NCBI GenBank assembly: GCA_037833965.1
Contig: AP031354.1
Coordinates: 10,518,001 to 10,582,000 of the forward strand
Length of the DNA: 64,000 nucleotides
Direction: 5' to 3'
Source of the DNA: Marchantia polymorpha subsp. ruderalis
Taxonomy: Eukaryota > Streptophyta > Marchantiopsida > Marchantiales > Marchantiaceae
Below are positions 1,691 to 33,203 of the stretch, one piece after another (positions within the stretch are counted from its first letter, which is position 1; each line of letters starts with the position of its first letter). Position numbers and translations under genes: made by a program. A model generated the notes under the pieces. The model saw only the letters and a program-made list of their open reading frames with translations, was not told the DNA's origin and searched no databases.

Positions 1691-4600
1691 TCACCTGACC
1701 TCTCGTGTGTGAAGGGCCTGCATAGCAACAAAAGAATCTGGTACACCTTCGAGACTGTCACATTGAAGACAGACGTACTGAAGCGCTTCCGGTTCCGGAA
1801 GGAAGGATCGAGGCAACCGTCGAAGGTTCTGGCACACAAGGATCAACTCTCGCAACTGCGACATTCTGGCAAAAAACTCTGGTAGACTCTGGAGTTTGTC
1901 GCATTGCAACTCTAGCTTTTGAAGACCTACCAACGCACCAAATCGATCAGGCAATATCTCAAGTGCGTTGCATCGTAGGCTGAGGTCTTGAAGGGCGAGC
2001 AGTTCACCAATAGACGGTGGCAAGCTGACTAGAGTTTGGCATTTGAGGTTCAGTTCTTGCAACTGTGTCAAGTGGCCAATACTTTCGGGCAGGCATTTCA
2101 ACAGGTCGCACTCCAAATGTATTTTTTGAAGATCCTGCAACCGACTGAAAGAGTCTGGAAGCCTCTTCAGTTTCTGGGCTACAAGCTTCAGCAACCGCAG
2201 TTTCTGTAGGCTGCCAAAGTTATCAGGCAAAGACCGGAGGTTTCCAGCTTCCAGGTGTAGGAATTGAAGGTTGCTCAGCCCACACACAGACTCTGGCAAG
2301 CAGTCTATTTTCAAAGCCGTCATTGACAAGTACACAAGCAGGCTGGACTTTGCGAATGATATATTCTTCCCACTGTTCTGGCTGCTGAACACGACAACGG
2401 ATCTAGGCAATGTAGCTTTGCCTTTTTCTACCTCGCAGTCCACCAATTGTAGACACCGCAGTCTCCCCATACTGCAAATTTCGTGTAAAGGAAGACGCTG
2501 GGAGAGATGTTCACAATTTGAATACCCTCCAGATTCAGGAATGCGGCATTTCAAGCAAATTTTCGTGGAATATTGACCAGAGATTTCTTCACATACCACC
2601 TGCAAAGTGTGCACGTTCTGCATTGAATGGCAACGCATATGCTCGTAAGAAAGCTTCGACCTTCAAGTAAATTAATAGAAAGACGAAAACGTCTAGATAA
2701 GCAGAACCTGGAAGTGACTCTAAACGATCTGTGATAAGTTGTAGATCAACGTAATGTTGTATGCATAGACGATTATATGTTGCTGTAAGGTACTAAATGA
2801 CCGCTCAGATATTCACAGATACGTTTGTCAGTGACATAAGAACTTTGATCTAGGACCATTGGCAAATGCTTGCATGGATAAAATTACCACTCCTCACATT
2901 CTGTCTCCAATCGGAAAAATATGTGAAACATAACGGGGAAACTGGTATTCAACGAAGTAGCGAATCACCTTAATCTTACGATCGACATCTTGTAAAATTT
3001 TTAAAAGGTTCTCGACACTGTCGACCCGAATCTTGAAGTCGTCGTTATCAGTCAACGAGTGGCCGAAGCGCTTTAACAGTTCATGGATCCTGATCACTGA
3101 ATCGTCTGGTACTTGAGAAACTAGTGACCGGTCAACCAGTGTTTTCCAGTGTAGAGCTTCATATTGATATATCATACTCCAAATAACCTTCGCTTCGGAT
3201 AACGTCCACTGTCTCTGGCCATGTCTCCACCCGTGATTCTCCACGAATCTTTCTTGGAAAAATGTTGCAGCTTCTAAAAACATTTGCTTTTCCTCGGGCC
3301 CGAGTTTGTCGTAGCTCATAGTCAGAGACTTCCACACTTTATCGCTCATAGTCAGAGGCTTCCACACTTTATCGCTCATAGTCAGAGGCTTCCACACTTT
3401 ATCGCGTCCAACAAAATCTCCGCGGTATCCATTCATCAAATGAGGGGTTATCTGTTGCCACACCTCTTTGTCATCAACCTTTTTCAGATAATCAGCTACA
3501 TCATACAAGGACGATGGCAGACCTCCACACGCTTGCACTATTTCCTCCATGCACTTTGTCTGCCACTCTTGCAAAGGTTGGTTGTCTGGGAACGCACGCG
3601 TCTTGAACAGCAGTTTAGAATCCTCCCCATCTAAAGGTGCAACTCTAACTATGTGTATGCCATCGATCTTGTTTAACATCTGTCGATTCTGTGATGCTAC
3701 GATGAAGCGGCTACTGCTCAACAAGGTGCGGCTGAGCTTTCTCAGCAGTTCGATTTCCCTGTCCTTTTCTACATCATCGAACGCCACCAGTAACTTCTTC
3801 CCTCTCAACTGGACCAAGTTAGGTGCTGGGGTAATCTTCTTGCCTTTGTGATGCACGAGACTCAACACCGTCTCCTCGAATTCTCTCTCGTCACCAGGAA
3901 TCTGCTTGACGCCCTCAGCGAAAAGCGTGTAAGGAAAGGCGTTCCATAGAGCATTAAAAAAATATTTGCAGAGAGTGGTTTTCCCAACTCCTACCATCCC
4001 CCAAAATCCCAAAGCTTTATGTTTCTCCAATTCTTGGTGGATTTCTTCAACTTTCCGAGAGATTTCTGGAATTTCCTTGAGTAGACCGACTTTTATCTGC
4101 GGCAGGTCTTGCATATTTTCTGCAGTCATCGTGACCTGCGGCATTTTCTAGCAAGATCAGTACATTCCTGTCTATTATGTTCAAATTTGTAACCAGGAAA
4201 CAGCAGAAATCCATGCCCAACATCTTTTGCCAAACTGGAAAGACCGTATAAAGAGAAGTATAAAAGGTCCTGTAGCACTCTAGACATTTGTAAGATCTCG
4301 ACATTAAGAAAAGTCCGTGGAATTTACCTGGGCTAGAATCGTTTCAATAAAAGTTTCTAAGAACTGATACGAGCTGCTATCTCTACTATTTGGCTGGCAG
4401 ATTGAATAGTGGTCTGCATCGGGGACTATCATGAAGTTGAAGTATCTTGCAGATGCCTCTTCAACTAGGACTTCACGGCGTCCGTTTTCCTGGAGAGGGA
4501 TAATCAGTGAGTATTGTACATTGGAACAGAATCAGATATTGGTTGATTGCAGCAAGTGGAGGTAAATTTATATACATAAAAAATTACATACTTTAGAGGC

Positions 4601-5350
4601 TTTCAGCCTATTGCAGTGTGAATGCACGCAGTCCAGCTTATCGCATACTACTGACAAAAAGGGACCGAATGATAAATATGTCCAAAGGAGCTACTATGCA
4701 GATTGATTCCTGGAAGTTACCAGTTCCGTAGGTAAAGATTCACCCAAGCCTGTGACCTTCCAATCGTACTCATTACGAAGAAGGTCATGAAGTTCATTGA
4801 GTCTCGACAATTTATTGCTGGACACCTTCACGTACTCAAACCACTCTCCTTCCGCTATGTTAGTTTTTCCTACAATATCTGTCAATGAGCGATATCCACG
4901 ATGAGGCACTCCGAAGTAGCAGAAGCCTTTCAGGTTTTGAAGAAAAGTGGTATACAGTTCCTTCCTCTCGTTAGCTCTTCGACAAACTGCTTTTGCAACT
5001 ATTCCTCCAAAACAGTGACAAACGAATATGAATGGTCTGTTTTTACCAACATCTGCCCGTGTCAGCTCCCCCAACAGATTCTCTGCCACCAGATATAAAT
5101 CCATATTGCTATCTTTCTTGATGCTATCTTCGTAGGAGACTGCTAGTATACGTATGCTAGGGTTAATTTCGTAAAGCCAATTCAGCCATACTTCTGATGG
5201 CTTAGTTCGAGATATCCAAGTTACTTTATGTGCCTCACGCGTAGGTTTGAAAGGAAGACCATGGAGGAACACACAGTCGAAAGCAGATTCTCCTGACAAC
5301 TCCGCAGAGTTTAGCAAGTAAACTGAATCACTCCTCTGAACATATCGCAT
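1691..5350 (-). CDS. HNL1: hydrolase-NB-ARC-LRR immune receptor
   Basis: Predicted intracellular NLR-type immune receptor. Exon 1 (5,350-4,721, 210 codons from ATG of MRYVQ) and exon 2 (4,489-4,328, 54 codons) form an alpha/beta-hydrolase-like domain. Both junctions are phase 0 with GT/AG ends. The nucleophile elbow reads VCHCFGG, with cysteine in place of serine. Exon 3 (from 4,135) is NB-ARC: P-loop GMVGVGKTT near residue 310, Walker B LLVAFDDV, an RNBS-B-like IVASQNR and GLPL-type CGGLPS. The MHD position reads IHELL. This frame stops at 2,894. The LRR part (about 2,671-1,691) holds roughly ten 23-residue leucine-rich repeats and ends in QALHTREVR. The intron between NB-ARC and LRR could not be placed. 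Relative to HNL2 there is a 1-nt indel near 2,950 that changes the end of exon 3, so either the true donor lies upstream or one copy is frameshifted. MTNIGT upstream at 5,368 is an alternative start, but MRxVQ is shared with HNL2. Family knowledge: this domain order is the liverwort HNL class. Confidence 0.82.
3314..3403 (-). repeat. Triple 30-bp in-frame repeat in HNL1 NB-ARC
   Basis: Three head-to-tail 30-bp units (starts 3,314, 3,344 and 3,374) encode three nearly identical decapeptides of the form DKVWKPLTMS. They lie between the GLPL region and the YDKLGPEEKQ segment of the NB-ARC/ARC2 region. HNL2 has only one related segment here (GKLWMQLKTS), so the expansion is specific to HNL1. It adds 20 residues without breaking the frame. 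Confidence 0.9.
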
Positions 5351-5368: not shown

Positions 5369-5728
5369 GGAAGAACAACTTTACTACTATACTGAACAAT
5401 AACTTTGAACTCAAATTCTGTAGTCCGGATACGTCTAGACTATTAGAAGGACAACATTCCAAACATTCTCTACAAAAGAGTTTGAATCTGGAATTTTTGA
5501 ATGAAAGGAGATATGAAGATGATTGGAATATCGTTAATGGCGTTTGTCAGGGAAGAACAACTTTACTATTTTACTTTGAACTCAAATTCTGTAGTCCGGA
5601 TACGTCTAGACTATTAGAAGGACAACATTCCAAACATTCTCTACAGGAGAGTTGAAATCTGAAAATTTTGAATGAAAGGAATTCTGAAGATGATTGGAAT
5701 ATCGTTAATGGCGTTTGCAGGAAGCTTG
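5369..5728 (-). promoter_or_regulatory. Tandemly duplicated HNL1 5' flank
   Basis: Immediately upstream of the HNL1 start, a block of about 180 bp occurs twice head to tail (copies begin near 5,369 and 5,551). Only small gaps and substitutions separate them. Blocks of it also occur upstream of HNL2 (27,215-27,430) and upstream of the 263-bp array (19,660-19,859), notably the ATTGGAATGTC/ATTCCAATCAT-type segments. It is therefore the ancestral HNL 5' flank, probably promoter plus 5' UTR. No convincing TATA box was seen. Confidence 0.6.
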
Positions 5729-5740
5729 AACTTGAAATGA

Positions 5741-7460
5741 ATCACACCCTAAATCCATACTTTCATATCATCACGTGACTCTCAAATCCTGCTCAAACTC
5801 ACAGGTTTCATTTTGCAGGCAGAATTAAGACAAAAAAAATTAGCAGAATCTAATACGAGAACGAAATAAAGCATTCTTGTGACAAAACCGAGTGAGATTT
5901 CCGCACCCGTTTCCAATCAGACTCTCCGGACCTTCCAGCAGGATGTGCACTCGAGATTTCCTGTTCCTTTAGATCTTCCCTGTGGAATATTGTGCTCCAG
6001 GTTAGGAATCATACCCCAAAGAATGATAGAGAGTAGCTTCTAATGAGGTTCAAGGATTGCAGCTCAAGAATACCGATGTTCATACAAGATGGTGAATCAC
6101 TTTGAAGGAATCTGGACCACATGTCGGACTACAACACATGAAGCTGAAAGACCACAGTACGCAATCCAATATCAAGAAATGAGTTCGAGATGTAAGGCTG
6201 AAGAGCGTTCTTCGCCATGGCTAATGGAAGAAAGACTTCCAAAATCCACTGCTTATTCCTGTACACTGAAGTGCAAGGGCAAGTGCTGAATATTACTATG
6301 TACTTGAGTATTGGCGTGTTTCATAGTGTCTGGGAAAAGGCCAGCACAATTCGTCGAGGTACGTGAGCTGTAATTTTTGGGGCAAGTCTCTGTCTTCACC
6401 AAGAAATCAGACAAATGAACATCCTACTCTTTTATGAATAAATCACATCTTGTACACATCTTCTCGAAAACTTCAAATTTTGGTACTCACATTTCATTCG
6501 AGTCCATTGATCAGAATTCATCCCAGTCAATTGTTGTCAATAAGCGAGAAGAACCGGATTTGCTTTTCCAATTTGTGGGGCATGGAAATAGATTTCAGAG
6601 TCAAAGACAAAAAAAGTAAATCTGCAGGGAAGAAATCTCTGAAGAGGCAACTGCAGCTATACACAAGTTCTTCGCGAGTCAGACTGAGCGATGCACACTT
6701 TCACTCTCCACTCCTTAGAGGACTGCAAGACATTAAAACGCAAGACTGGCGTCAGCTTCTCTCCACTACTGAGTTCTCTACGCCACTAGTTGCTGCCATG
6801 CTCGCACAGCCAGTTCAGAGGCCTATGTGAGATCAGAGACCTTTCATCCATTTAGACAAGTCAAAGCTTCTTGAACATGTTTTAATCACAAGATGATCGA
6901 GACGGGATTGATATATATAAATCCATAAAAAAATGTGTGTTTGTAATGGACAGGTAACTGACAACGAGTTCCCGATCGTGACTAGCTCACTTTCTGAAGC
7001 AGAAGCATCTATCTACAGCCAGTGGACTGGAGCATGCAATTCGGCTATTGATATCATTTCACTTGCCTTACCATTGGTGAAAGGAAATGGGTGTTCGATT
7101 GCTGAACTCATAAAGAACCAAGAGAAGGGTCCTAAACTGCATATCGACGCTGTAACAATCAAGTGATTGACAGGATAATCTAAAACAAGGAGTGAAGCTT
7201 CTCTTAATCAGCAATCAGATACTGGTTCGGTTCAATTCAGTATTATTTCAATCAAAACTAGTGTTAGCCGAGATGGCAGCAAACTTGAACCCTTGTTTAG
7301 AAATCAATATTGTATAATGAAAGGGGATATAGAAGCAGAGGAGAACAGTCGATGATCGGAGCTGACCTGGCCTTTTGGAAGCAAGCAGCGTAGAGCCGGC
7401 ACGTTCCCCAGAAAAGTCGAATGTTTCCCCTGACTACAATTGCTCGAGAGCCAAGGCGTT
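5741..7460. other. Unassigned region with short open frames
   Basis: No recognisable gene. Plus-strand frames at 6,089-6,289, 6,450-6,830 and 6,933-7,166 are open for 66, 126 and 77 codons. The last starts near a possible AG|GT junction at about 6,953 and looks mildly protein-like, being acidic to polar and ending in HIDAVTIK. They could be exons of one unrecognised plus-strand gene, but no domain, start context or consistent splice chain could be established. Codon content does not clearly exceed chance. Confidence 0.2.
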
Positions 7461-17547: not shown

Positions 17548-19132
17548 ATGGAATCTCCACCCGAGGCCGACCCGATGGCAGAACAAACAAAGAAATTTAA
17601 GGTGATGGCGATCTGCAACCGATTATCAGCCACCGTGAGCTCAATTCTTTGGTTTCACAAGAATTGCTGCTGCTGCTGCTCGACGTTGAAATGTGGTCTG
17701 TTGTCCATGTCTACAGAGATTGGGCGAGTACGTGTACGAGCTCCAGCACGAGGAGGACCCGGAGGCCGTGATCGTGTTCTTCCACGGCCTTTTGATTCAG
17801 GAGACGGACACGGGCCACGCTTTCTGGAGCACGTGGACGAAGCGAAATACTCTCGAATGCTGGCCCGTGACGATGCTTCCGGAATTTTTGCAATGGGGGG
17901 CGGATTCCTCTCGCCCTTTCAGAATTCGTGTGCTCGCGGTCTCGTATGAGGGACGGATGAGCGTGCATCCAGACATCGGGACGGCCGGGACCGACAAGTA
18001 CCTTCTCGCCGAGAGTTTAATCAGTGAGCTCATTCTGAGCCCTCAGGACTTGATTCGAGGATCGAGGGCGGTGGAGGACAATAAAGTCCCCGTCTTTCTG
18101 GTCGGCCACGACCTCGGAGGGATCATAATTAAGAATTTCGTCATGGAAGTGGAGAGGACAATTTACGACAAGAAGGAAGACGCCGATAGAAAAAAAATGC
18201 AGAATTTTCTCAGCAATCTGAAAGCTGTGTTCTTCTACGCCACACCTCACAATGGATCGCAAGCCATCGAGGACTTGGCCCAGCAAATCCCCGAAGACTC
18301 ACGCAATCAGATGCTCACTCTGATGAGCGTTCTCGGTACTGATATGGCGAGAATCAACTCATATTTCAGAACTTATCGGTCCGAGATTTTCCACCATCGG
18401 GTCCTTCTACGATTCAAAACTTACGGCATCGTTCCAACGAGTTTAACCAACCAGGTATGGCGCTGTCACACCTTCCAGTTCCAGAAATCGACGGATCCGT
18501 GGATGACAGCTCCAGCGAGAGCGTCGAGATTGGAAGCTTGTGTTAGAGACTGCCCCAACCCTGCACGTAGAAATATGGACAATGCTTAGATTTATTCTAA
18601 TCAGAGTTGCTCTTCATCGCCGCAGTCATCGATTCGAGTAGAGAAACGAAGTATCATGTGCGTGAAGTTTTGACTTTTGCGTTGTCCCGTGCAGAGAGGT
18701 TTCGACAGGACGATGGTCGTCCCGGAAGCATCTGCTAGATATGATATGGACACATTTTTCTTCGTTGAAGCTGATCACTTTCAGGTTTGCCAGCCTGAAA
18801 GGCTGGCAAGGTTCGATCCCATAACGAAACTCGGTGAGAAAGTTTACAAGGAGGTGTCGAAAATCAGACAATTAGAAGACTTGAGGATATTCAATGCACA
18901 AAGACCAGTATTAGAACCCTACGGCCGGAGTGGATGGTCTGGCTCTCAAAATTTGCAAGCTTGGTTTATGATGGCTGTGGAGCACAGGAGGCTCAGAGAA
19001 TTAGAAGACTTGAGGATATTCAATGCACAAAGACAAGTATTAGAACCCTCCAGCTGGAGTGAAAGGTTTCTCTCTCAACCACCTGGAATCAAAGCTTTAC
19101 GTAAAGGGAAGTTCCGCCAGGTATTTCTCTAG
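17548..19132 (+). CDS. HNL-related alpha/beta-hydrolase-like protein without NBS-LRR
   Basis: Three exons are proposed. Exon 1 (17,548-17,601) encodes MESPPEADPMAEQTKKFK. Exon 2 (17,717-18,454) begins RLGEYVYEL. Exon 3 (18,695-19,132) ends at a TAG. All junctions are GT/AG and phase 0, about 410 codons in all. Exon 2 carries VIVFFHGL, an IRVLAVSYEGR strand, the elbow VGHDLGG and FFYATPHNGS, in the order found in both HNL hydrolase domains. Exon 3 starts like HNL exon 2 (ASARYDMDTFFFVEADH, then CQPE). The usual nucleophile serine is aspartate. No NB-ARC or LRR follows before the array at 19.9 kb. Codons are GC-richer than in HNL1 and HNL2, suggesting an older separate lineage. A donor-like CAG|GT sits just before the stop, so further exons are possible. 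Role unknown; perhaps a partner or decoy of HNL receptors (inference). Confidence 0.65.
18787..18809. repeat. Perfect 10-bp hairpin, 3-nt loop, inside coding exon
   Basis: TTGCCAGCCT and its exact reverse complement flank GAA within exon 3 of the hydrolase gene, at the point where its protein stops resembling HNL exon 2 (just after CQPE). Confidence 0.85.
18865..19055 (+). repeat. 129-bp in-frame tandem duplication in exon 3
   Basis: A block encoding ELEDLRIFNAQR-VLEP occurs at about 18,872 and again 129 bp (43 codons) later at 19,001. The nucleotides are nearly identical, and the frame is kept. Confidence 0.88.
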
Positions 19133-19210
19133 CGCCGCAGGCGCAAAATTTTTTCTCGACCGCGTGTTCACGATCTGTAGCTCACAATCTGTAGACCCTT
19201 CCTGTGCTTG

Positions 19211-19275
19211 GGGGGGGGGGGGGGGGGGGGGGGTGAGCTTAAGGGCACGCCCCCCCCCCCCCCCCCCCCCCCCCC
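19211..19275. repeat. Poly-G (23) / poly-C (26) inverted homopolymer pair
   Basis: Twenty-three G, a 16-nt spacer, then 26 C. The arms can pair as a very strong hairpin, and each strand can also form G-quadruplex or i-motif structures. The exact run lengths may be limited by sequencing accuracy. Confidence 0.9.
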
Positions 19276-19599
19276 ACATAGCATGGCAGCAACTATGGGC
19301 ATAGAGAATTCAGAAGTAAAGAGTAGCTGACGCGGGTCCTGTGGTTTAATTTCTTGCGTTCCTTTAAGGCGTGGAGAGTGAAAGCCTGCATCGCCCAGTC
19401 TCGATGCTGCAGGCGAACGTTGAGTGGTAGTACAGTAGGCACTAGAATATGTGATTAATCCAATCCTATGTATTGCATGTCAAGGAATCCTTTAGATGCC
19501 AAATCCGCCTTTAGAGATTTCTGCAATAGACAATTCTGAGACACCAAGGACAATTGGTGTCTCAATTGTTGTCTTCCTTATCTTTATCTCTATAGTTAT

Positions 19600-19859
19600 C
19601 TCTATAGGTAGCGAAATTATGCTTTGATCGTTCATGGTTTACTTTCTTTCAATTCCGAGCATCCTGCAAAGTCCATTACCGATTTTATAATTATCTTTTA
19701 TCTATAGCTTTTATATTACAACTCTATTGCGGAAAACGATTGGAATGTCCTCGAGTTTTGTACTTCTCGTACGTTAGAGGAAGTGTTAGGAGAAAATTTT
19801 GAAGTTTTTTGTTTTTGCAAAGTAAAATTGTAAAGTTGTTATCCCTTGACATATCTCCC
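19600..19859 (+). promoter_or_regulatory. Copy of the HNL 5' flank ahead of the array
   Basis: This block aligns with 27,168-27,430 upstream of HNL2. Shared pieces are GGTAGCGAAATTATG, AGCATCCTGCAAA, CCATTACCGATTTT, ATTGGAATGTCCTCG, AGTAAAA-TGT-AAGTTGTT and CTC-CATGCGATGTGTTCAG. It ends at the same MRCVQ start codon context. This indicates that a third HNL copy once stood here. Confidence 0.75.
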
Positions 19860-22800
19860 ATGCGATGTGTTCAGTGGAAAGAAAATCTCAAGATAAGAGA
19901 GTACGAGGACCGAGTCGAGAAATCTCGCAAATATGAAAAACGCCCGAACTCTATTGATATGACTGAAGCCGAGGTCACTTCCACCGACTTCTCTTAATAT
20001 CGAGATTTTACAAATGGATGGAGTGCTGCAGAACCTTTTATGCTTCTCTATATACGGTGTCTCCATTTTGGCCAGAGCTGTTGGGCATGAGTTTCTACTG
20101 ATCTTGCTAGAAAATGCTGCAGGTCGCGAAAACTGCCACGGATGAGCAAGTCCTGCCGCAGATACAAGTCGGTCTAGTCGAGAAATCTCGCAAAGATAAA
20201 AAACGCCCGAACTCTATTGATATGAGTGAAGCCGAGGTCACTTCCACCGACTTCTCTTAATATCGAGATTTTACAAATAGATAGAGTGCTGCAGAACCTT
20301 TTTTATGCTTCTCTACATACGGTGTCTCCAGTTTGGCAAGAGCTGTTGGGCATGAGTTTCTACTGATCTTGCTAGAAGATGCTGCAGGTCGCGAAAACTG
20401 CAACGGATGAGCAAGTCCTGCCGCAGATACAAGTCGGTCTTGTCGAGAAATCTCGCAAAGATGAAAAACGCCCGAACTCTATTGATATGAGTGAAGCCGA
20501 GGTCACTTCCACCGACTTCTCTTAGTATCGAGGTTTTACAAATGGATAGAGTGCTGCAGAACCTTTTATGCTTCTCTATATACGGTGTCTCCATTTTGGC
20601 AAGATATGTTGGGCATGAGTTTCTACTGATCTTGCTAGAAAATGCTGCAGGTCGCGAAAACTGCAACGGATGAGCAAGTCCTGCCGCAGATACAAGTCGG
20701 TCTAGTGGAGAAATCTCGCAAAGATGAAAAACGCCCGAACTCTATTGATATGACTGAAGCCGAGGTCACTTCCACCGACTTCTCTTAGTGTCGAGGTTTT
20801 ACAAATGGATAGAGTGCTGCAGAACCTTTTATGCTTCTCTATATACGGTGTCTCCATTTTGGCAAGATATGTTGGGCATGAGTTTCTACTGATCTTGCTA
20901 GAAAATGCTGCAGGTCGCGAAAACTGCAACGGATGAGCAAGTCCTGCCGCAGATACAAGTCGGTCTAGTCGAGAAATCTCGCAAAGATGAAAAACGCCCG
21001 AACTCTATTGATATGACTGAAGCCGAGGTGACTTCCACCGACTTCTCTTAGTATCGAGGTTTTACAAATGGAGAGAGTGCTGCAGAACCTTTTATGCTTC
21101 TCTATATACGGTGTCTCCATTTTGGCCAGAGCTGTTGGGCATTAGTTTCTACTGATCTTGCTAGAAAATGCTGCAGGTCGCGAAAACTGCAACGGATGAG
21201 CAAGTCCTGCCGCAGATACAAGTCGGTCTAGTCGAGAAATCTCGCAAAGATGAAAAACGCCCGAACTCTATTGATATGAGTGAAGCCGAGGTCACTTCCA
21301 CCGACTTCTCTTAGTATCGAGGTTTTACAAATGGATAGAGTGCTGCAGAACCTTTTATGCTTCTCTATATACGGTGTCCCCATTTTGGCAAGATATGTTG
21401 GGCATGAGTTTCTACTGATCTTGCTAAAAAATGCTGCAGGTCGCGAAAACTGCAACGGATGAGCAAGTCCTGCCGCAGATACAAGTCGGTCTAGTGGAGA
21501 AATCTCGCAAAGATGAAAAACGCCCGAACTCTATTGATATGAGTGAAGCCGAGGTCACTTCCACCGACTTCTCTTAGTATCGAAGTTTTACAAATGGATA
21601 CAGTGCTGCAGAACCTTTTATGCTTCTCTATATACGGTGTCTCCATTTTGGCAAGATATGTTGGGCATGAGTTTCTACTGATCTTGCTAGAAAATGCTGC
21701 AGGTCGCGAAAACTGCAACGGATGAGCAAGTCCTGCCGCAGGTACAAGTCGGTCTAGTCGAGAAAACTCGCATAGATGAAAAACGCCCGAACTCTATTGA
21801 TATGAGTGAAGCCGAGGTCACTTCCACCGACTTCTCTTAGTATCGAGGTTTTACAAATGGATAGAGTGCTGCAGAACCTTTTATGCTTCTCTATATACGG
21901 TGTCTCCATTTTGGCAAGATATGTTGGGCATGAGTTTCTACTGATCTTACTAGAAAATGCTGCAGGTCGCGAAAACTGCAACGGATGAGCAAGTCCTGCC
22001 GCAGATACAAGTCGGTGTAGTCGAGAAATCTCGCAAAGATGAAAAACGCCCGAACTCTATTGATATGAGTGAAGCCGAGGTCACTTCCACCGACTTCTCT
22101 TGGTATCGAGGTTTTACAAATGGATAGAGTGCTGCAGAACCTTTTATGCTTCTCTATATACGGTGTCTCCATTTTGGCAAGATATGTTGGGTATGAGTTT
22201 CTACTGATCTTGCTAGAAAATGCTGCAGGTCACGAAAACTGGACTGGATGAGCAAGTCCTGCCACAGATACAAGTCGATCTAGTCGAGAAATCTCGCAAA
22301 GATGAAAAACGCCCGAACTCTATTGATATGACTGAAGCCGAGGTCACTTCCACCGACTTCTCTTAGTATCGAGGTTTTACAAATGGATGGAGTGCTGCAG
22401 AACCTTTTATGCTTCTCTATATACAGTGTCTCCATTTTGGCAAGAGCTGTTGGGCATGAGTTTCTACTGATCTTGCTAGAAGATGCTGCAGGTCGCGAAA
22501 ACTGCACTGGATAAGCAAGTCCTGCCGCAGATACAAGTCGGTCTAGTGGAGAAATCTCGCAAAGATGAAAAACGCCCGAACTCTATTGATATGACTGAAG
22601 CCGAGGTCACTTCCACCGACTTCTCTTAGTATCGAGGTTTTACAAATGGAGAGAGTGCTGCAGAACCTTTTATGCTTCTCTATATACGGTGTCTCCATTT
22701 TGGAAAGATATGTTGGGCATGAGTTTCTACTGATCTTGCTAGAAAATGCTGCAGGTCGCGAAAACTGCACTGGATGAGCAAGTCCTGCCGCAGATACAAG

Positions 22801-25800
22801 TCGATCTAGTAGAGAAATCTCGCAAAGATGAAAAAAGCCCGAACTCTATTGATATGAGTGAAGCCGAGGTCACTTCCACCGACTTCTCTTAGTATCGAGG
22901 TTTTACAAATGGATAGAGTGCTGCAGAACCTTTTATGCTTCTCTATATACGGTGTCTCCATTTTGGCAAGATATGTTGGGTATGAGTTTCTACTGATCTT
23001 GCTAGAAAATGCTGCAGGTCACGAAAACTGCACTGGATGAGCAAGTCCTGCCACAGATACAAGTCGGTCTAGTCGAGAAATCTCGCAAAGATGAAAAACG
23101 CCCGAACTCCATTGATATGAGTGAAGCCGAGGTCACTTCCACCGACTTCTCTTAGTATCGAGGTTTTACAAATGGATAGAGTGCTGCAGAACCTTTTATG
23201 CTTCTCTATATACGGTGTCTCCATTTTGGCAAGATATGTTGGGCATGAGTTTCTACTGATCTTGCTAGAAAATGCTGCAGGTCGCGAAAACTGGAACTGA
23301 TGAGCAAGTCCTGCCGCAGATACAAGTCGATCTAGTCGAGAAATCTCGCAAAGATGAAAAACGCCCGAACTCTATTGATATGACTGAAGCCGAGGTCACT
23401 TCCACCGACTTCTCTTAGTATCGAGGTTTTACAAATGGATGGAGTGCTGCAGAACCTTTTATGCTTCTCTATATACAGTGTCTCCATTTTGGCAAGATAT
23501 GTTGGGCATGAGTTTCTACTGATCTTGCTAGAAGATGCTGCAGGTCGCGAAAACTGCACTGGATGAGCATGTCCTGCCGCAGATACAAGTCGATCTAGTT
23601 GAGAAATCTCGCAAAGATGAAAAAAGCCCGAACTCTATTGATATGAGTGAAGCCGAGGTTACTTCCACCGACTTCTCTTAGTATCGAGGTTTTACAAATG
23701 GATAGAGTGCTGCAGAACCTTTTATGCTTCTCTATATACGGTGTCCCCATTTTGGCAAGATATGTTGGGCATGAGTTTCTACTGATCTTGCTAGAAAATG
23801 CTGCAGGTCGCGAAAACTGCAACGAATGAGCAAGTCCTGCCGCAGATACAAGTCGGTCTAGTCGAGAAATCTCGCATAGATGAAAAACGCCCGAACTCTA
23901 TTGATATGAGTGAAGCCGAGGTCACTTCCGCCGACTTCTCTTAGTATCGAGTTTTACAAATGGATAGAGTGCTGCAGAACCGTTTATGCTTCTCTATATA
24001 CGGTTTCTCCATTTTGGCAAAATATGTTGGGCATGAGTTTCTACTGATCTTGCTAGAAAATTCTGCAGGTCGCGAAAACTGCAACGGATGAGCAAGTCCT
24101 GCCGCAGATACAGGTCGGTCTAGTCGAGAAATCTCGCAAAGATGAAAAACGCCCGAACTCTATTGATATGACTGAAGCCGAGGTCACTTCCACCGACTTC
24201 TCTTGGTATCGAGGTTTTACAAATGGATAGAGTGCTGCAGAACCTTTTATGCTTCTCTATATACGGTGTGTCCATTTTGGCAAGATATGTTGGGTATGAG
24301 TTTCTACTGATCTTGCTAGAAAATGCTGCAGGTCGCGAAAACTGCACTGGATGGGCAAGTCCTGCCGCAGATACAAGTCGGTCTTGTCGAGAAATCTCGC
24401 AAAGATGAAAAACGCCCGAACTCTATTGATATGACTGAAGCCGAGGTCACTTCCACCGACTTCTCTTAGTATCGAGGTTTTACAAATGGATAGAGTGCTG
24501 CAGAACCTTTTATGCTTCTCTATATACAGTGTCTCCATTTTGGCAAGAGCTGTTGGGCATGAGTTTCTACTGATCTTGCTAGAAGATGCTGCAGGTCGCG
24601 AAAACTGCACTGGATAAGCAAGTCCTGCCGCAGATACAAGTCGGTCTTGTCGAGAAATCTCGCAAAGATGAAAAACGCCCGAACTCTATTGATATGAGTG
24701 AAGCCGAGGTCACTTCCACCGACTTCTCTTAGTATCGAGGTTTTACAAATGGAGAGAGTTCTGCAGAATCTTTTATGCTTCTCTATATACAGTGTCTCCA
24801 TTTTGGCAAGATATGTTGGGCATAAGTTTCTACTGATCTTGCTAGAAAATGCTGCAGGTCGCGAAAACTGCACTGGATGAGCAAGTCCTGCCGCAGATAC
24901 AAGTCGATCTAGTTGAGAAATCTCGCAAAGATGAAAAAAGCCCGAACTCTATTGATATGAGTGAAGCCGAGGTTACTTCCACCGACTTCTCTTAGTATCG
25001 AGGTTTTACAAATGGATAGAGTGCTGCAGACCCTTTTATGCTTCTCTATATACGGTGTCCCCATTTTGGCAAGATATGTTGGGCATGAGTTTCTACTGAT
25101 CTTGCTAGAAAATGCTGCAGGTCGCGAAAACTGCAACGGATGAGCAAGTCCTGCCGCAGATACAAGTCGGTCTAGTCGAGAAATCTCGCATAGATGAAAA
25201 ACGCCCGAACTCTATTGATATGAGTGAAGCCGAGGTCACTTCCACCGACTTCTCTTAGTATCGAGTTTTACAAATGGATAGAGTGCTGCAGAACCGTTTA
25301 TGCTTCTCTATATACGGTGTCTCCAGTTTGGCAAAATATGTTGGGCATGAGTTTCTACTGATCTTGCTAGAAAATGCTGCAGGTCGCGAAAACTGCAACG
25401 GATGAGCAAGTCCTGCCGCAGATACAGGTCGGTCTAGTCGAGAAATCTCGCAAAGATGAAAAACGCCCGAACTCTATTGATATGACTGAAGCCGAGGTCA
25501 CTTCCACCGACTTCTCTTGGTATCGAGGTTTTACAAATGGATAGAGTGCTGCAGAACCTTTTATGCTTCTCTATATACGGTGTGTCCATTTTGGCAAGAT
25601 ATGTTGGGTATGAGTTTCTACTGATCTTGCTAGAAAATGCTGCAGGTCGCGAAAACTGCACTGGATGGGCAAGTCCTGCCGCAGATACAAGTCGGTCTTG
25701 TCGAGAAATCTCGCAAAGATGAAAAACGCCCGAACTCTATTGATATGAGTGAAGCCGAGGTCACTTCCACCGACTTCTCTTAGTATCGAGGTTTTACAAA

Positions 25801-27066
25801 TGGATAGAGTGCTGCAGAACCTTTTATGCTTCTCTATATATGGTGTGTCCATTTTGGCAAGATATGTTGGGCATGAGTTTCTACTGATCTTGCTAGAAAA
25901 TGCTGCAGGTCGCGAAAACTGCAACGGATGAGCAAGTCCTGCCGCAGATACAAGTCGATCTAGTCGAGAAATCTCGCAAAGATGAAAAACGCCCGAACTC
26001 TATTGATATGAGTGAAGCCGAGGTCACTTCCACCGACTTCTCTTAGTATCGAGGTTTTACAAATGGATACAGTGCTGCAGAACCTTTTATGCTTCTCTAT
26101 ATACAGTGTCTCCATTTTGGCAAGATATGTTGGGCATGAGTTTCTACTGATCTTGCTAGAAATGCTGCAGGTCGCGAAAACTGCACTGGATGAGCAAGTC
26201 CTGCCGCAGATACATGTCGGTCTAGTGGAGAAATCTCGCAAAGATGAAAAACGCCCGAACTCTATTGATATGAGTGAAGCCGAGGTCACTTCCACCGACT
26301 TCTCTTAGTATCGAGGTTTTACAAATGGATAGAGTGCTGCAGAACCTTTTATGCTTCTCTATATACGGTGTGTCCATTTTGGCAAGATATGTTGGGCATG
26401 AGTTTCTACTGATCTTGCTAGAAAATGCTGCAGGTCGCGAAAACTGCAACGGATGAGCAAGTCCTGCCGCAGATACAAGTCGATCTAGTCGAGAAATCTC
26501 GCAAAGATGAAAAACGCCCGAACTCTATTGTTATGAGTGAAGCCGAGGTTACTTCCACCGACTTCTCTTAGTATCGAGGTTTTACAAATGGATAGAGTGC
26601 TGCAGAACCTTTTATGCTTCTCTATATACGGTGTCTCCATTTTGGCAAGATATGTTGGGCATGAGTTTTTACTGATCTTGCTAGAAAATGCTGCAGGTCG
26701 CGAAAACTGCAACGGATGAGCAAGTCCTGCCGCAGATACAAGTCGATCTAGTCGAGAAATCTCGCAAAGATGAAAAACGCCCGAACTCTATTGATATGAG
26801 TGAAGCCGAGGTCACTTCCACCGACTTCTCTTAGTATCGAGGTTTTACAAGGACCTTCTATGCTTCCAGTTTCGCAAAAGATCATGGGCATGGAATTCTG
26901 CTGTTTCCTAGTTACAATTTTTCTAAATTCCTGGTCTCCGGATCCCGGATTGCAGGAAGTCTGGAGTGCACATCGTGCTGGAAGCTTCAGAGAATCTGCT
27001 TGGGAAGAGGTGCGGGAATCTCGCTCAGTTTCGTCACAGCAAGGCTTGACTTCATTCTCGTTTTAG
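19860..27066 (+). CDS. Candidate spliced repeat-protein gene built from HNL exon ends (hypothetical)
   Basis: Hypothetical model. It starts at ATG 19,860 in the HNL MRCVQ context. The first exon is 19,860-19,973 (38 codons). Twenty-six further exons of 114 nt follow, for example 20,123-20,236, 20,388-20,501 and 26,697-26,810. Each begins VAKTATDEQVLPQ or close, ends NSIDMSEAE, and is separated from the next by an intron of about 149 nt derived from HNL intron 2. A terminal exon at 26,956-27,066 follows a TTGCAG acceptor and ends in TAG in the same phase. Predicted product is about 1,060 residues, charged and helical-looking, with no recognised domain. Acceptors (CTGCAG) and donor GT are kept in every unit read. 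I saw no stop or indel in the 114-nt parts. Against it: donors read GTCACT rather than HNL's GTAAAT, and retaining the first intron gives a 45-residue product. It may simply be a satellite. Confidence 0.3.
19880..26860 (+). repeat. 27-copy, ~263-bp tandem array derived from HNL intron 2
   Basis: Marker points (TGA-x-TGAAGCCGAG) recur at about 19,960, 20,222, 20,487, 20,750 and so on to 26,796, with spacings of 262-265 bp. The unit reads: exon end, GT, intron, AG, exon start. It matches 28,470-28,690 of HNL2 for most of its length, plus an extra stretch of about 40 bp (AAACGCCCGAACTCTATTG onward) not found in HNL2. Units differ by scattered substitutions. Spacing changes come from indels in the intron part, such as an extra TT near 20,300, a lost G near 23,950 and 25,265, and a lost A near 26,160. 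The right edge (26,850-26,940) runs into HNL1-like intron sequence. Confidence 0.95.
23595..26224 (+). repeat. Higher-order repeat of five units (~1,314 bp)
   Basis: Units share private variants with units 1,314 bp away. Those at 23,595 and 24,909 share GTTACTTCC, CCCCATTTTGG and AAAAAGCCCG. Those at about 23,880 and 25,190 share CGCATAGATG and the lost G. Those at 24,120 and 25,434 share GATACAGGTCGG, TCTTGGTATC and TGTGTCCATT. The five-unit block thus occurs at least twice in tandem, a sign of unequal exchange or block amplification. Confidence 0.8.
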
Positions 27067-27167
27067 CCTCTGACAATTGTTATTTTATTCATTCTTTCTG
27101 CATAATAAAACATGTGAGTTCGAGTAGTAGCATAAGAAAGTGTTTAATTCATTATTCCTTACGTTTA

Positions 27168-27430
27168 AAGGTAGCGAAATTATGATTTGATCATGTGCAA
27201 GTTTACCTACAAGCATCCTGCAAACGCCATTACCGATTTTCCAATCATATTCATCATGAGATCTTTTCATGGCTATTATATTTCAACTCTCTCTTGCAGG
27301 TAATGATTGGAATGTCCTCGTGGTTTCTCCTCCTCATAACCCTAGAGATAATGTTATGACAAAAAATGTTGACTTTTTTCTTGTTGTTAAGTAAAACTGT
27401 GAAGTTGTTCTCCATTGACTATAATCTCTC
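27168..27430 (+). promoter_or_regulatory. HNL2 5' flank
   Basis: Upstream region of HNL2, paralogous to 19,600-19,859 and to the doubled HNL1 flank at 5,369-5,728. Conservation of these blocks in three copies suggests promoter or 5' UTR function. No clear TATA box was identified. Confidence 0.5.
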
Positions 27431-30400
27431 ATGCGATGTGTTCAGGAGAATGATTCAGTTCACGTGCTGAAGTCTGCGGAGCTCTCAAGAAAATCTACTC
27501 TCGACTCTGTGTTCTTCCATGGTCTTCAGTTAAGACCTATGCCTGAACCACATAAGTTTACGTGGATATCTCAATCTGAGCCATCAGAAGTATGGTTGAA
27601 ATGGCTTCACGAAATTCACCCGACCATGCGTATAATAGCAGTCTCCTACGATGCCAGCATGAAGGAGGATAGCAAGAATGGGAGTATGGATTTATATCAG
27701 GTGGCAGAAAACTTGTTGTCTAAGCTGATACTGGCAGGTGTTGGTCAAAGCGGACCAATCATATTCGTTGGTCATAATTTCGGAGGAATAATTGCAAAAG
27801 CAATTTCTCGACAAGCTCACTTTCGACACAGCCTATATGAGAATGACACAGATATAACCAATTTTCTTGAAAACCTGAGAGGCCTCTTCTACTTCGGAGT
27901 GCCTCATCGTGGAAGCTCATTCACAGATATTGTAGAACAACTCAGCATCGTGAAAGGACAGTTGGTTGACTACGTGAAGGTTTCCAGCAAAGAATTGTCG
28001 AGACTCAATGAAGATCATGACGCTCTTTGTAAACGCTACGATTGGAAGGTCGCAGGCGTGGGTGAATCGTTACCTACGAATCTGGTACCTCCAGTAATCA
28101 TTCTGCATAGTAGCTCGTTTGGACATATTTATTATGTGATTGCTTCTTTTCAGTAGTGAGAGAGAAGCTGGAATGCGTGCATTCGCATTGCAATAGACTG
28201 AAAGGCTCTTCGGTAAAAATTTCTAATGTACCTAAATTTACCTACACTTGCTTCAATCAACCAATATCTGCTTCAGTTCTAATGTACAGTACTCACTTAT
28301 TCCTCTCCAGGGAAACGGATTCTGTGGAGTCATAGTTGACAAGGCATCTGCAAGATGTAGAAACTTCATGATAGTCGACCAAGACCACTCTTCACTCTGC
28401 CAACCAGAGAGTAGAAATAGCAGCTCGTATCTGCACTTAAAAGAATTTATTGATAGGATTCAAGCCCAGGTAAATTCCACCGACTTCTCTTAATATCGAG
28501 ATTTTACAAATGGATAGAGTGCTGCAGAACCTTTTATGCTTCTCTATATACGGTGTCTCCATTTTGGCAAAATATGTTGGGCATGAGTTTCTACTGATCT
28601 TGCTAGAAAATGCTGCAGGTCACGAAAACTGCAACAGATGAGCAAGTCCTGCCGCAGATACAAGTCGGTCTACTCGAGAAATCTCGGAAAGATGAAGAAT
28701 TCCAGCAACAACTGGTCAAACATACAGCTTTGGGATTTTGGGGGATGGTAGGAGTTGGGAAAACCACACTCTGCAAAGCTATTTTCAATGATCTATGGAA
28801 CGCCTTTCCTTACACGCTTTTCGCTGAGGGCGTCAAGCAGATTCCTGGTGACGAGAGAGAATTCGAGGAGACGGTGTTGTGTCTCGTGCATCACAAAGGC
28901 AAGAAGATTACCCCAGCACCTAACTTGGTCCAGCTGAGAGGGAAGAAGTTACTGGTGGCGTTCGATGACGTAGAAAAGGACAGGGAAATCGATCTGCTCA
29001 GAAAGCTCAGCCGCACCTTGTTGGATAGTAGCCGCTACATCGTAACATCACAGAATCGACAGATGTTAAATAAGATCGATGGCATACACATATTTGAAGT
29101 TGCACCTTTAGATGGGGAGGAATCTAAACTGCTGTTCAAGACGCTTGCGTTCCCAGACAACCAACCTTTGCTCGGGTGGTAGGAAGAGTGGATGGAGGCT
29201 ATAGTGCAAACGTGTGGAGGTCTGCCATTGACTTTGGAAATTGTAGCTAATTATCTGAAAGGGTGTATTTCTATAGACGTGTGGCAACAGATGCCCGAAT
29301 ATGTGGGGAATGCAGATCACGGAGAGACTGTTGGATTGGGTAAATTGTGGATGCAGCTGAAAACCAGCTACGACAATCTCGGGCCCGAGGAAAAGCAAAT
29401 GTTTTTAGAAGCTGCAACATTTTTCCAAGAAAGGTTCGTGGAGAATCACGGGTGGAGACATGGCCAGAGACAGTGCACGTTATCCGAAGCTAAGGTTATT
29501 TGGAGTATGATGCATGGGAATGAAGCTCTACACTGGAGAACCCTCGTTGACCGGTCAATGGTTTCTGACGTTGCAGACGATTCAGTAATCAGGATCCATG
29601 AACTGTTTAAGGGCTTGGGCCACTCGTTAGCTGATACGGACGACTTCAAGATTCGGGTCGACAGTGTCGAAAACCTCTTAATGATTTTACAAGATGGCAA
29701 GCGGAAGATTAAGGTGACTCGCTACTTCCTTGAATACCAGCTCCCCGTTATGTTTCACATACTCTTCCAATTGGAGACAGAATGTGAGGAGAGGTACTTT
29801 CGCCCATGCAAGCATTTTCCAAAGGTCCTAGACCAAAGTTCTTACGTCACTGATAATCGTGTTTGTGAATATTTGAGCTGTCGTACATGTCATTTATTAC
29901 CTTACAGCAACATATAATCTACTATGCATACAACAACACTACGTTGATCTACAACTTATCACCCATCGTTTAGAGTCAGTTCCAGGCTCTGCTTATCTAT
30001 ACGTTTTCGTCTTTTTATTAATTTACTTGAAGGTCGAAGCTTTCTTACGAGCATGTGCGTTGCCATTCAATGCAGAATGTGCACACGCTGCAGGTGGTAT
30101 GTAAAGATATCTCTGGTGAGTTTTCTTCCACAAAACTTTGCTTTAAGTGCTTCAAACTACAACGTGGATGGTCTTCACACTGTGAACATCTCTCCCAGCG
30201 TCTTCCTTTACACAAACTTTGCAATATGAAAAGCCTGCGATGTCTACAATTGGTGGACTGTGAGATAGAAAAAGGCAAAGTGAAATTGCCTAGATCCGTT
30301 GTCGTGTTCCGCAGCCAGAACAGTGGGAAGTATATATCCTTCGGAGAGTCTAGCCCACTGGTGTACCTGTCAATGAAGGCTTTCAAAATAAAGCGCTTGC

Positions 30401-31459
30401 CAGAGTCTGTGTGTGGGCTGAGCAACCTTCACTTCCTAAACCTGGAAGCTGGAAACCTCCTTTCTTTGCCTGATAACTTTGGCAGCCTAAAGAAACTGCG
30501 GCAGCTGAAGCTTGTAACCCAGAAACTGAAGAGGCTTCCAGACTTTTTCAGCTCGTTGCAGGATCTTCTAAAAGTACATCTGGAGTGCGACCGGTTGAAG
30601 TTCCTGCCCGAAAGTATTGGCCACTTGAGACAGTTGCAAGAACTGAACCTTCAATGTCAAACTCTAGTCAGCTTGCCATCCTCTATCGGTGAACTGCATG
30701 CCCTTCAGGAGCTCAGCCTACGATGCAACTCACTTGAGATCTTGCCTGATCGTTTTCGTGAGCTGGTTGGTCTTCAAAAGCTAGAGTTGCGATGCGACAA
30801 ACTCCAGAGTCTACCAGAGTCTTCTGCTAGACTGACGCAGTTGACGCAGTTGATCCTTGTGTGCCGGAAGCTTCGATGGTTGCCTCAATCCTTCCATGAA
30901 TTGGAAGCGCTTCAGGACCTCTATCTTCAATGTGACAGTCTCGAAAGTTTACCAGAATCTCTTCGTTGTAGGCTGGAGAGAACTGAAGAGGCTTCCAGAC
31001 TTTTTCAGCTCGTTGCAGGATCTTCAAAAAGTACATCTGGAGAGCGACCGGTTGAAGTTCCTGCCCGAAAGTATTGGCTACTTGAGACAGTTGTCAAACT
31101 GTCAGCTTCAATGTCAAACTCTAGTCAGCTTGCCATTCTCTATCGGTGAACTGCATGCCCTTCAGGAGCTCAGCCTACGATGCAACTCACTTGAGATCTT
31201 GCCTGATCGTTTTTGTGAGCTGGTTGGTCTTCAAAAGCTAGAGTTGCGATGCGACAAACTCCAGAGTCTACCAGAGTCTTCTGCTAGACTGACGCAGTTG
31301 CCGCAGTTGATCCTTGTGTGCCGGAAGCTTCGATGGTTGCCTCAATCCTTCCATGAATTGGAAGCGCTTCAGGACCTCTGTCTTCAATGTGACAGTCTCG
31401 AAAGTTTACCAGAATCTCTTCGTTGTAGGCAGGCCCTTCACACGCCAGAGTTCAGGTGA
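27431..31459 (+). pseudogene. HNL2: hydrolase-NB-ARC-LRR gene with nonsense and frameshift
   Basis: Exon 1 is 27,431-28,084 (218 codons, MRCVQENDSVH), exon 2 is 28,311-28,469 (53 codons), and NB-ARC exon 3 starts at 28,619. All junctions are phase 0 and GT/AG. The hydrolase elbow is VGHNFGG, with asparagine replacing the serine. NB-ARC motifs are GMVGVGKTT, LLVAFDDV, IVTSQNR and CGGLPL. A TAG at 29,180-29,182 interrupts it at the position of a glutamine codon (CAG) in HNL1, a single C-to-T change. The frame is otherwise open to 29,917. The LRR part begins about 30,033. A 457-bp internal duplication (30,524 onward repeated at 30,981 onward) shifts the frame, so the second LRR block (to the stop at 31,459) is out of frame with the first. 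Two independent lesions point to a pseudogene. Readthrough, an N-terminal truncated receptor, or sequence error are alternatives. Confidence 0.82.
30524..31437 (+). repeat. 457-bp tandem duplication in HNL2 LRR exon
   Basis: The block starting AACTGAAGAGGCTTCCAGAC at 30,524 recurs at 30,981 with few substitutions. 457 is not a multiple of three, so the copies are in different frames. The second copy still keeps a fully open LRR frame and the native C-terminus (QALHTPEFR), so the duplication looks recent. Confidence 0.92.
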
Positions 31460-33076: not shown

Positions 33077-33203
33077 TATCCATACCCCAAAATCCCAGAG
33101 CTTTCTATAGCATCCATCGTTGCTCGATATCTTCACCTTTCAGAGATTTGAGTAGACCGACTTCTATCTGCAGCAGGACTTGCTCATCTGTTGCAGTCTA
33201 AAA
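33077..33203 (-). pseudogene. HNL NB-ARC exon start, relic
   Basis: The minus strand reads through the start of HNL exon 3: ACTGCAACAGATGAGCAAG, then a QVGLL-like segment and ALGFWGM at the P-loop approach. It breaks off before GVGKTT. A stop interrupts it (GCTATAG just before the ALGFWGM codons). It is a fragment of a further HNL copy, held between two direct repeats. Confidence 0.75.

Follow-up and report, generated by a model that had tools for sequence, protein, structure and literature searches.

Positions 19860 to 27066 of a 64,000-nucleotide stretch of Marchantia polymorpha DNA, hereafter called the window, carry a long run of short open segments alternating with intron-like DNA. The question raised by this locus is whether these segments are the exons of a newly formed gene, or whether they are copies of a piece of an older gene that still show the frame of their source. 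An earlier note on this DNA favored the first possibility, proposing 27 tandem 38-codon exons copied from an immune receptor. Our analysis indicates that the region is very probably a young, private minisatellite-like tandem array within an HNL immune-receptor gene that survives as a truncated relic. HNL genes are the alpha/beta-hydrolase-NBS-LRR genes of this liverwort (PMC3352924).

The repeat unit and its source

Tandem Repeats Finder places a tandem array with a period of 263, 26.4 copies and 96% matches at 19913..26850 on the plus strand, and its head-to-tail, high-identity copies identify it as a tandem repeat (minisatellite-like) array. A script located the acceptor motif [C/T]TGCAG before GTC at 26 sites, and from each of these sites a phase-0 open stretch of exactly 114 nt runs to a GT. 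These 26 stretches (20123..26810, plus strand) are separated by intron parts of 149 nt (148 to 151). The first stretch of the array, starting with an ATG at position 19860, has the same length and is likewise open, giving 27 open stretches that span 19860-26810. The earlier description of all units as 114 nt long, open in phase 0 and bounded by CTGCAG and GT thus holds for length and frame in 27 of 27, including the absence of any stop, whereas the boundaries hold in 26, the first stretch starting at the ATG.

The units are spaced about 263 bp apart (262 to 265), with 265 occurring once, 262 three times and 263 in all other cases. Indels among the units fall at unit columns 145, 176-177 and 252. 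All of these columns lie in the intron part and none in the 114-nt parts, as had been claimed. The acceptor reads CTGCAG in 26 of 26 cases and the donor reads GTCACT in 23 of 27, GTTACT in three and GTGACT in one, such that GT and AG are kept in every unit. The spliced frame, as computed, amounts to 27 x 38 + 36 = 1,062 codons followed by a stop that ends at 27,066.

Two HNL copies flank the array on C5, where the window occupies 10518001-10582000, and both are recognized from their ORFs and from Pfam NB-ARC and LRR matches. The downstream copy (27431..31459, plus strand) comprises a hydrolase exon (27431-28153), exon 2 (28311-28469), an intron (28470-28618), an NB exon from 28619 and an LRR part. 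An in-frame TAG at 29180-29182 lies inside its NB exon, with the same frame open on either side. The second copy, used for comparison, is located on the minus strand at 1691..5350. The hydrolase exons of both copies have no Pfam match at E <= 0.001, and a looser limit gives only sub-threshold thioesterase or alpha/beta-hydrolase matches.

We aligned the unit with nine HNL (hydrolase-NBS-LRR) copies, two on C5 and seven on C9 (L063 duplicates one L062 copy). The unit comprises the terminal part of HNL exon 2, a phase-0 intron and ~26 codons from the beginning of the NB exon. The HNL intron between the hydrolase part and the NBS is in phase 0 in the aligned copies, and the same phase is stated for M. 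polymorpha HNL genes in their published description (PMC3352924). This correspondence supports a derivation of the units from an HNL immune-receptor gene and bears out the source proposed in the earlier note. An intron deletion of ~43 nt is common to the array units and the downstream HNL, whereas the other eight copies are without it. Set against the unit consensus, the downstream HNL shows 5 differences over 149 intron positions and 4 over the 78 NB-derived exon positions that were compared, and the unit parts share ~95% DNA identity with its junction, reaching up to 97.7% in the intron. The peptide predicted from the units would be of the type VAKTATDEQVLPQ, and its counterpart in the downstream HNL, VTKTATDEQVLPQ, is close but different.

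The array is not itself an HNL gene, as each unit carries only the exon 2 end, the intron and the ~26 NB-exon codons, with no hydrolase body, NBS or LRR. A protein search with the NB exon returned 248 candidates, none of them at E <= 0.001. No second array was found among the genome matches listed (at least 26), and the matches outside the array are single HNL-like places on C5 and C9. Among the titles and abstract openings listed from the open-licence literature, none concerns this array.

Other duplications occur nearby. In the LRR part of the downstream HNL, a 457-bp tandem duplication (30524-31430, two copies, 97% matches) is accompanied by a second LRR ORF in another frame. The NB exon of the minus-strand HNL contains three in-frame copies of a 30-bp repeat of the DKVWKPLTMS type (3314-3405), and a 171-bp tandem duplication (5402-5721) lies directly upstream of the start of the same gene. 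These duplications, in or beside both HNL copies, suggest that the locus is prone to tandem events. A detached fragment of an HNL NB exon is also present on the minus strand at 33080-33197, where it is 82% identical and carries internal stops.

The flanks of the array

The left flank includes HNL-derived segments. The segment at 19280..19401 (plus strand) corresponds to distal upstream sequence of the minus-strand HNL, with 82.8% identity over 122 nt to window positions 6681-6802 (minus strand). The segment at 19603..19860 (plus strand) is a copy of the proximal HNL 5' flank and is 71.6% identical to 27166-27431, which confirms the claimed HNL start codon and the HNL flank copy preceding it. 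The first open stretch (19860..19973, plus strand) is a chimera of the HNL start ATGCGATGTGTTCAG, a further 38 nt, and unit sequence. No source for this 38-nt junction was found in the 64-kb window and the compared HNL loci. An inverted pair lies beside the 5' flank at 19209-19275, where a long run of G and a stretch of 26 C are separated by ~16 bases. An ORF with a sub-threshold alpha/beta-hydrolase match is located at 17690-18586, directly upstream of the array.

At the right edge, 26864..26921 (plus strand) is a piece of HNL intron of the older, undeleted type, unlike the introns of the array units. The corresponding intron segment of the minus-strand HNL (4183-4240) shares 89.7% identity with it across 58 nt, and the C9 copies match it as well. 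The putative last exon and stop follow at 26956..27066 (plus strand). In the earlier note, the last unit led to an acceptor and an in-frame stop at 27,066. The frame and the stop are indeed present, but the "exon" is HNL upstream sequence. Homologues of 26937-27066 are located upstream of the HNL coding start in seven of the eight other copies, namely the minus-strand copy, two in L062, and those in L064, L065, L067 and L068. The eighth copy, L066, has no homologue in the 1.4 kb upstream, and its hydrolase match begins only at exon base 270. The segment is part of a conserved HNL upstream region that has many small indels and lacks a long frame common to the copies.

Some features of this segment first resembled a real gene end. 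Gaps among the copies in the putative last exon are 3, 6 or 9 nt long, the frame is otherwise open, and AATAAA follows in the array and in five of the seven homologues. These resemblances are overruled by three observations. Variable positions in the 111-nt segment are distributed almost evenly over codon positions 1, 2 and 3 (20, 21 and 22 of 37), revealing no codon periodicity. Moreover, an earlier TGA is present in three of the seven homologues (L065, L067 and L068), and the acceptor AG is missing in three (L064, L065 and L068). We therefore reject the segment as a conserved coding exon.

Coding potential of the array

If the array were a new gene, the copied HNL flank would drive its transcription, and splicing of each unit to the next would yield a protein of ~1,062 residues built from 38-residue repeats, close to the earlier figure of about 1,060. 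All exons would be symmetric in phase 0, and so the frame would be preserved whichever of them were included. Several of the features described above favor this possibility, including the 27 open frames, the constant exon length, the conserved GT and AG, the ATG behind the HNL 5' flank, the in-frame stop, the confinement of indels to introns, and the gap lengths and AATAAA at the putative last exon. In addition, HNL genes are reported to be transcribed in M. polymorpha (PMC3352924).

Variation among the units nonetheless gives this reading no support. Counts were made over 25 full units, leaving out the first unit, which is chimeric, and the last, which is partial. Variable columns number 24 of 114 in exons and 34 of 149 in introns (Fisher p 0.77), and pi is 0.043 in exons versus 0.034 in introns. 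The substitution-rate comparison that the earlier note had proposed as a check therefore lends nothing to the gene reading. The 27 base changes in the exons comprise 18 non-synonymous, nine synonymous and no stop changes, whereas random placement would give ~19, ~7 and ~0.9, respectively, and the probability of nine or more synonymous changes is 0.24. Two adjacent non-synonymous changes travel jointly in 10 units. With piN at 0.040 and piS at 0.048 (26 exons, the first left out), the proposed dN/dS comparison likewise yields what is expected without selection. Thus, neither the variable columns nor the ratio of non-synonymous to synonymous changes in the 25 full units reveals extra constraint on exon parts over intron parts. 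As for indels, all three sites are in introns and none are in exons, an outcome that chance would produce with a probability of 0.18 if the sites are independent.

The absence of stops had been offered as modest evidence, on the estimate that one or two would be expected by chance. With ~0.9 expected and a probability of 0.38-0.43 of finding none, the open frames may well be due to chance. Furthermore, one antisense frame of the 114-nt part is open in 26 of 27 units; of the four remaining frames apart from the coding one, a second antisense frame is free of stops in 6 of 27 units and the other three in no unit. We therefore do not take stop-free units as evidence of coding. That the coding frame is the most open frame is as predicted by descent from coding DNA. 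In the intron part, two of the six frames are open in 22 and 21 of 26 units, and the rest are open in 0 or 1. The retention of GT and AG in all units is also likely by chance, given that 205 of 263 columns are invariant across the array.

The splice donors also argue against the gene reading. The consensus used for scoring was CAG/GTAAGT. Native HNL donors read CAG/GTAAAT in both C5 copies and GTAACT in seven of seven C9 copies, where AAG precedes in four. The array donor GAG/GTCACT matches the consensus at 6 of 9 positions, compared with 8 of 9 for the downstream HNL and 7 of 9 for the C9 type, and so the donors are weak, as the earlier note had recognized. Donor position +3 also differs among units. 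No sign of selection on a protein emerges, but a gene of very recent birth would give the same picture. Considering the lack of extra constraint, the weak donors and the origin of the last exon in HNL upstream sequence, we regard a new gene as very unlikely.

A possible origin and related systems

A young tandem array in an HNL relic could have arisen in a few steps. First, most of the body of an HNL copy would have disappeared, and the intron of this copy would have been fused to the region upstream of the next HNL. One duplication, with breakpoints at the NB-exon start and near the exon 2 end, and hence flanking the phase-0 intron, might then have yielded the 263-bp unit with its chimeric 114-nt stretch and its frame kept. 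With a phase-0 intron and one breakpoint in each exon, the frame should be kept in one case of three. Unequal exchange may subsequently have multiplied and shuffled the unit to ~26 copies. On the left, the relic would retain the start codon and 5' flank of HNL; on the right, it would retain the older-type intron part, fused to sequence from upstream of the next HNL. The open frames would represent inherited HNL coding sequence that has not yet worn away, and the array would probably make no protein product.

Exchange of blocks appears to be visible at a lag of five units, where u14-u17 differ from u19-u22 by only 2, 5, 0 and 7 positions, compared with a mean of 10.2 between neighbors. Units u16 and u21 are identical. 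Two further explanations were weighed against a young relic array. The array might be transcribed without being translated, for example as a small-RNA source or a silencing target that acts on HNL relatives. The high identity of the unit parts to the downstream HNL junction would be compatible with such a role, but no inverted arrangement of units was seen in the array, and we give this possibility very little credence. An assembly artefact affecting part of the copy number or order, as the identical units and the block repeat might suggest, is the least credible explanation, because the majority of unit pairs show several to many differences over their 263 positions and should be resolvable by accurate long reads, and because real unequal exchange also gives a block repeat.

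As a relic, the locus provides a clear natural case of the exon-intron-exon junction of a receptor gene becoming a tandem array. It also warns against taking open frames as evidence of a gene when a young array derives from coding DNA. Should the array prove to be spliced and translated, it would represent a multi-exon repeat gene born by amplification of one phase-0 intron with its exon edges, with the events still countable, and the length of its repeat protein could change by any number of units with the frame kept.

The array shares with HNL genes (PMC3352924) the exon 2-intron-NB exon junction, the phase-0 intron, and a start codon preceded by HNL 5' flank sequence, but it is without the hydrolase body, NBS and LRR domain. 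As in known in-gene tandem duplications across an exon-intron boundary, splice signals have been carried along. However, those cases involve one duplication in a gene, whereas ~26 copies are present here in a relic. The units of LPA kringle IV-2 contain both exons and introns. This protein-coding VNTR resembles the array in its head-to-tail units, but LPA is expressed and its units are 5.6 kb long, whereas the array has 263-bp units and exhibits no constraint. Ordinary minisatellite-like arrays share the high identity, the restriction to one place, the block repeats and the spread of variation over the unit. What distinguishes this array from them is its founder unit, which is a phase-0 intron with in-frame exon edges.
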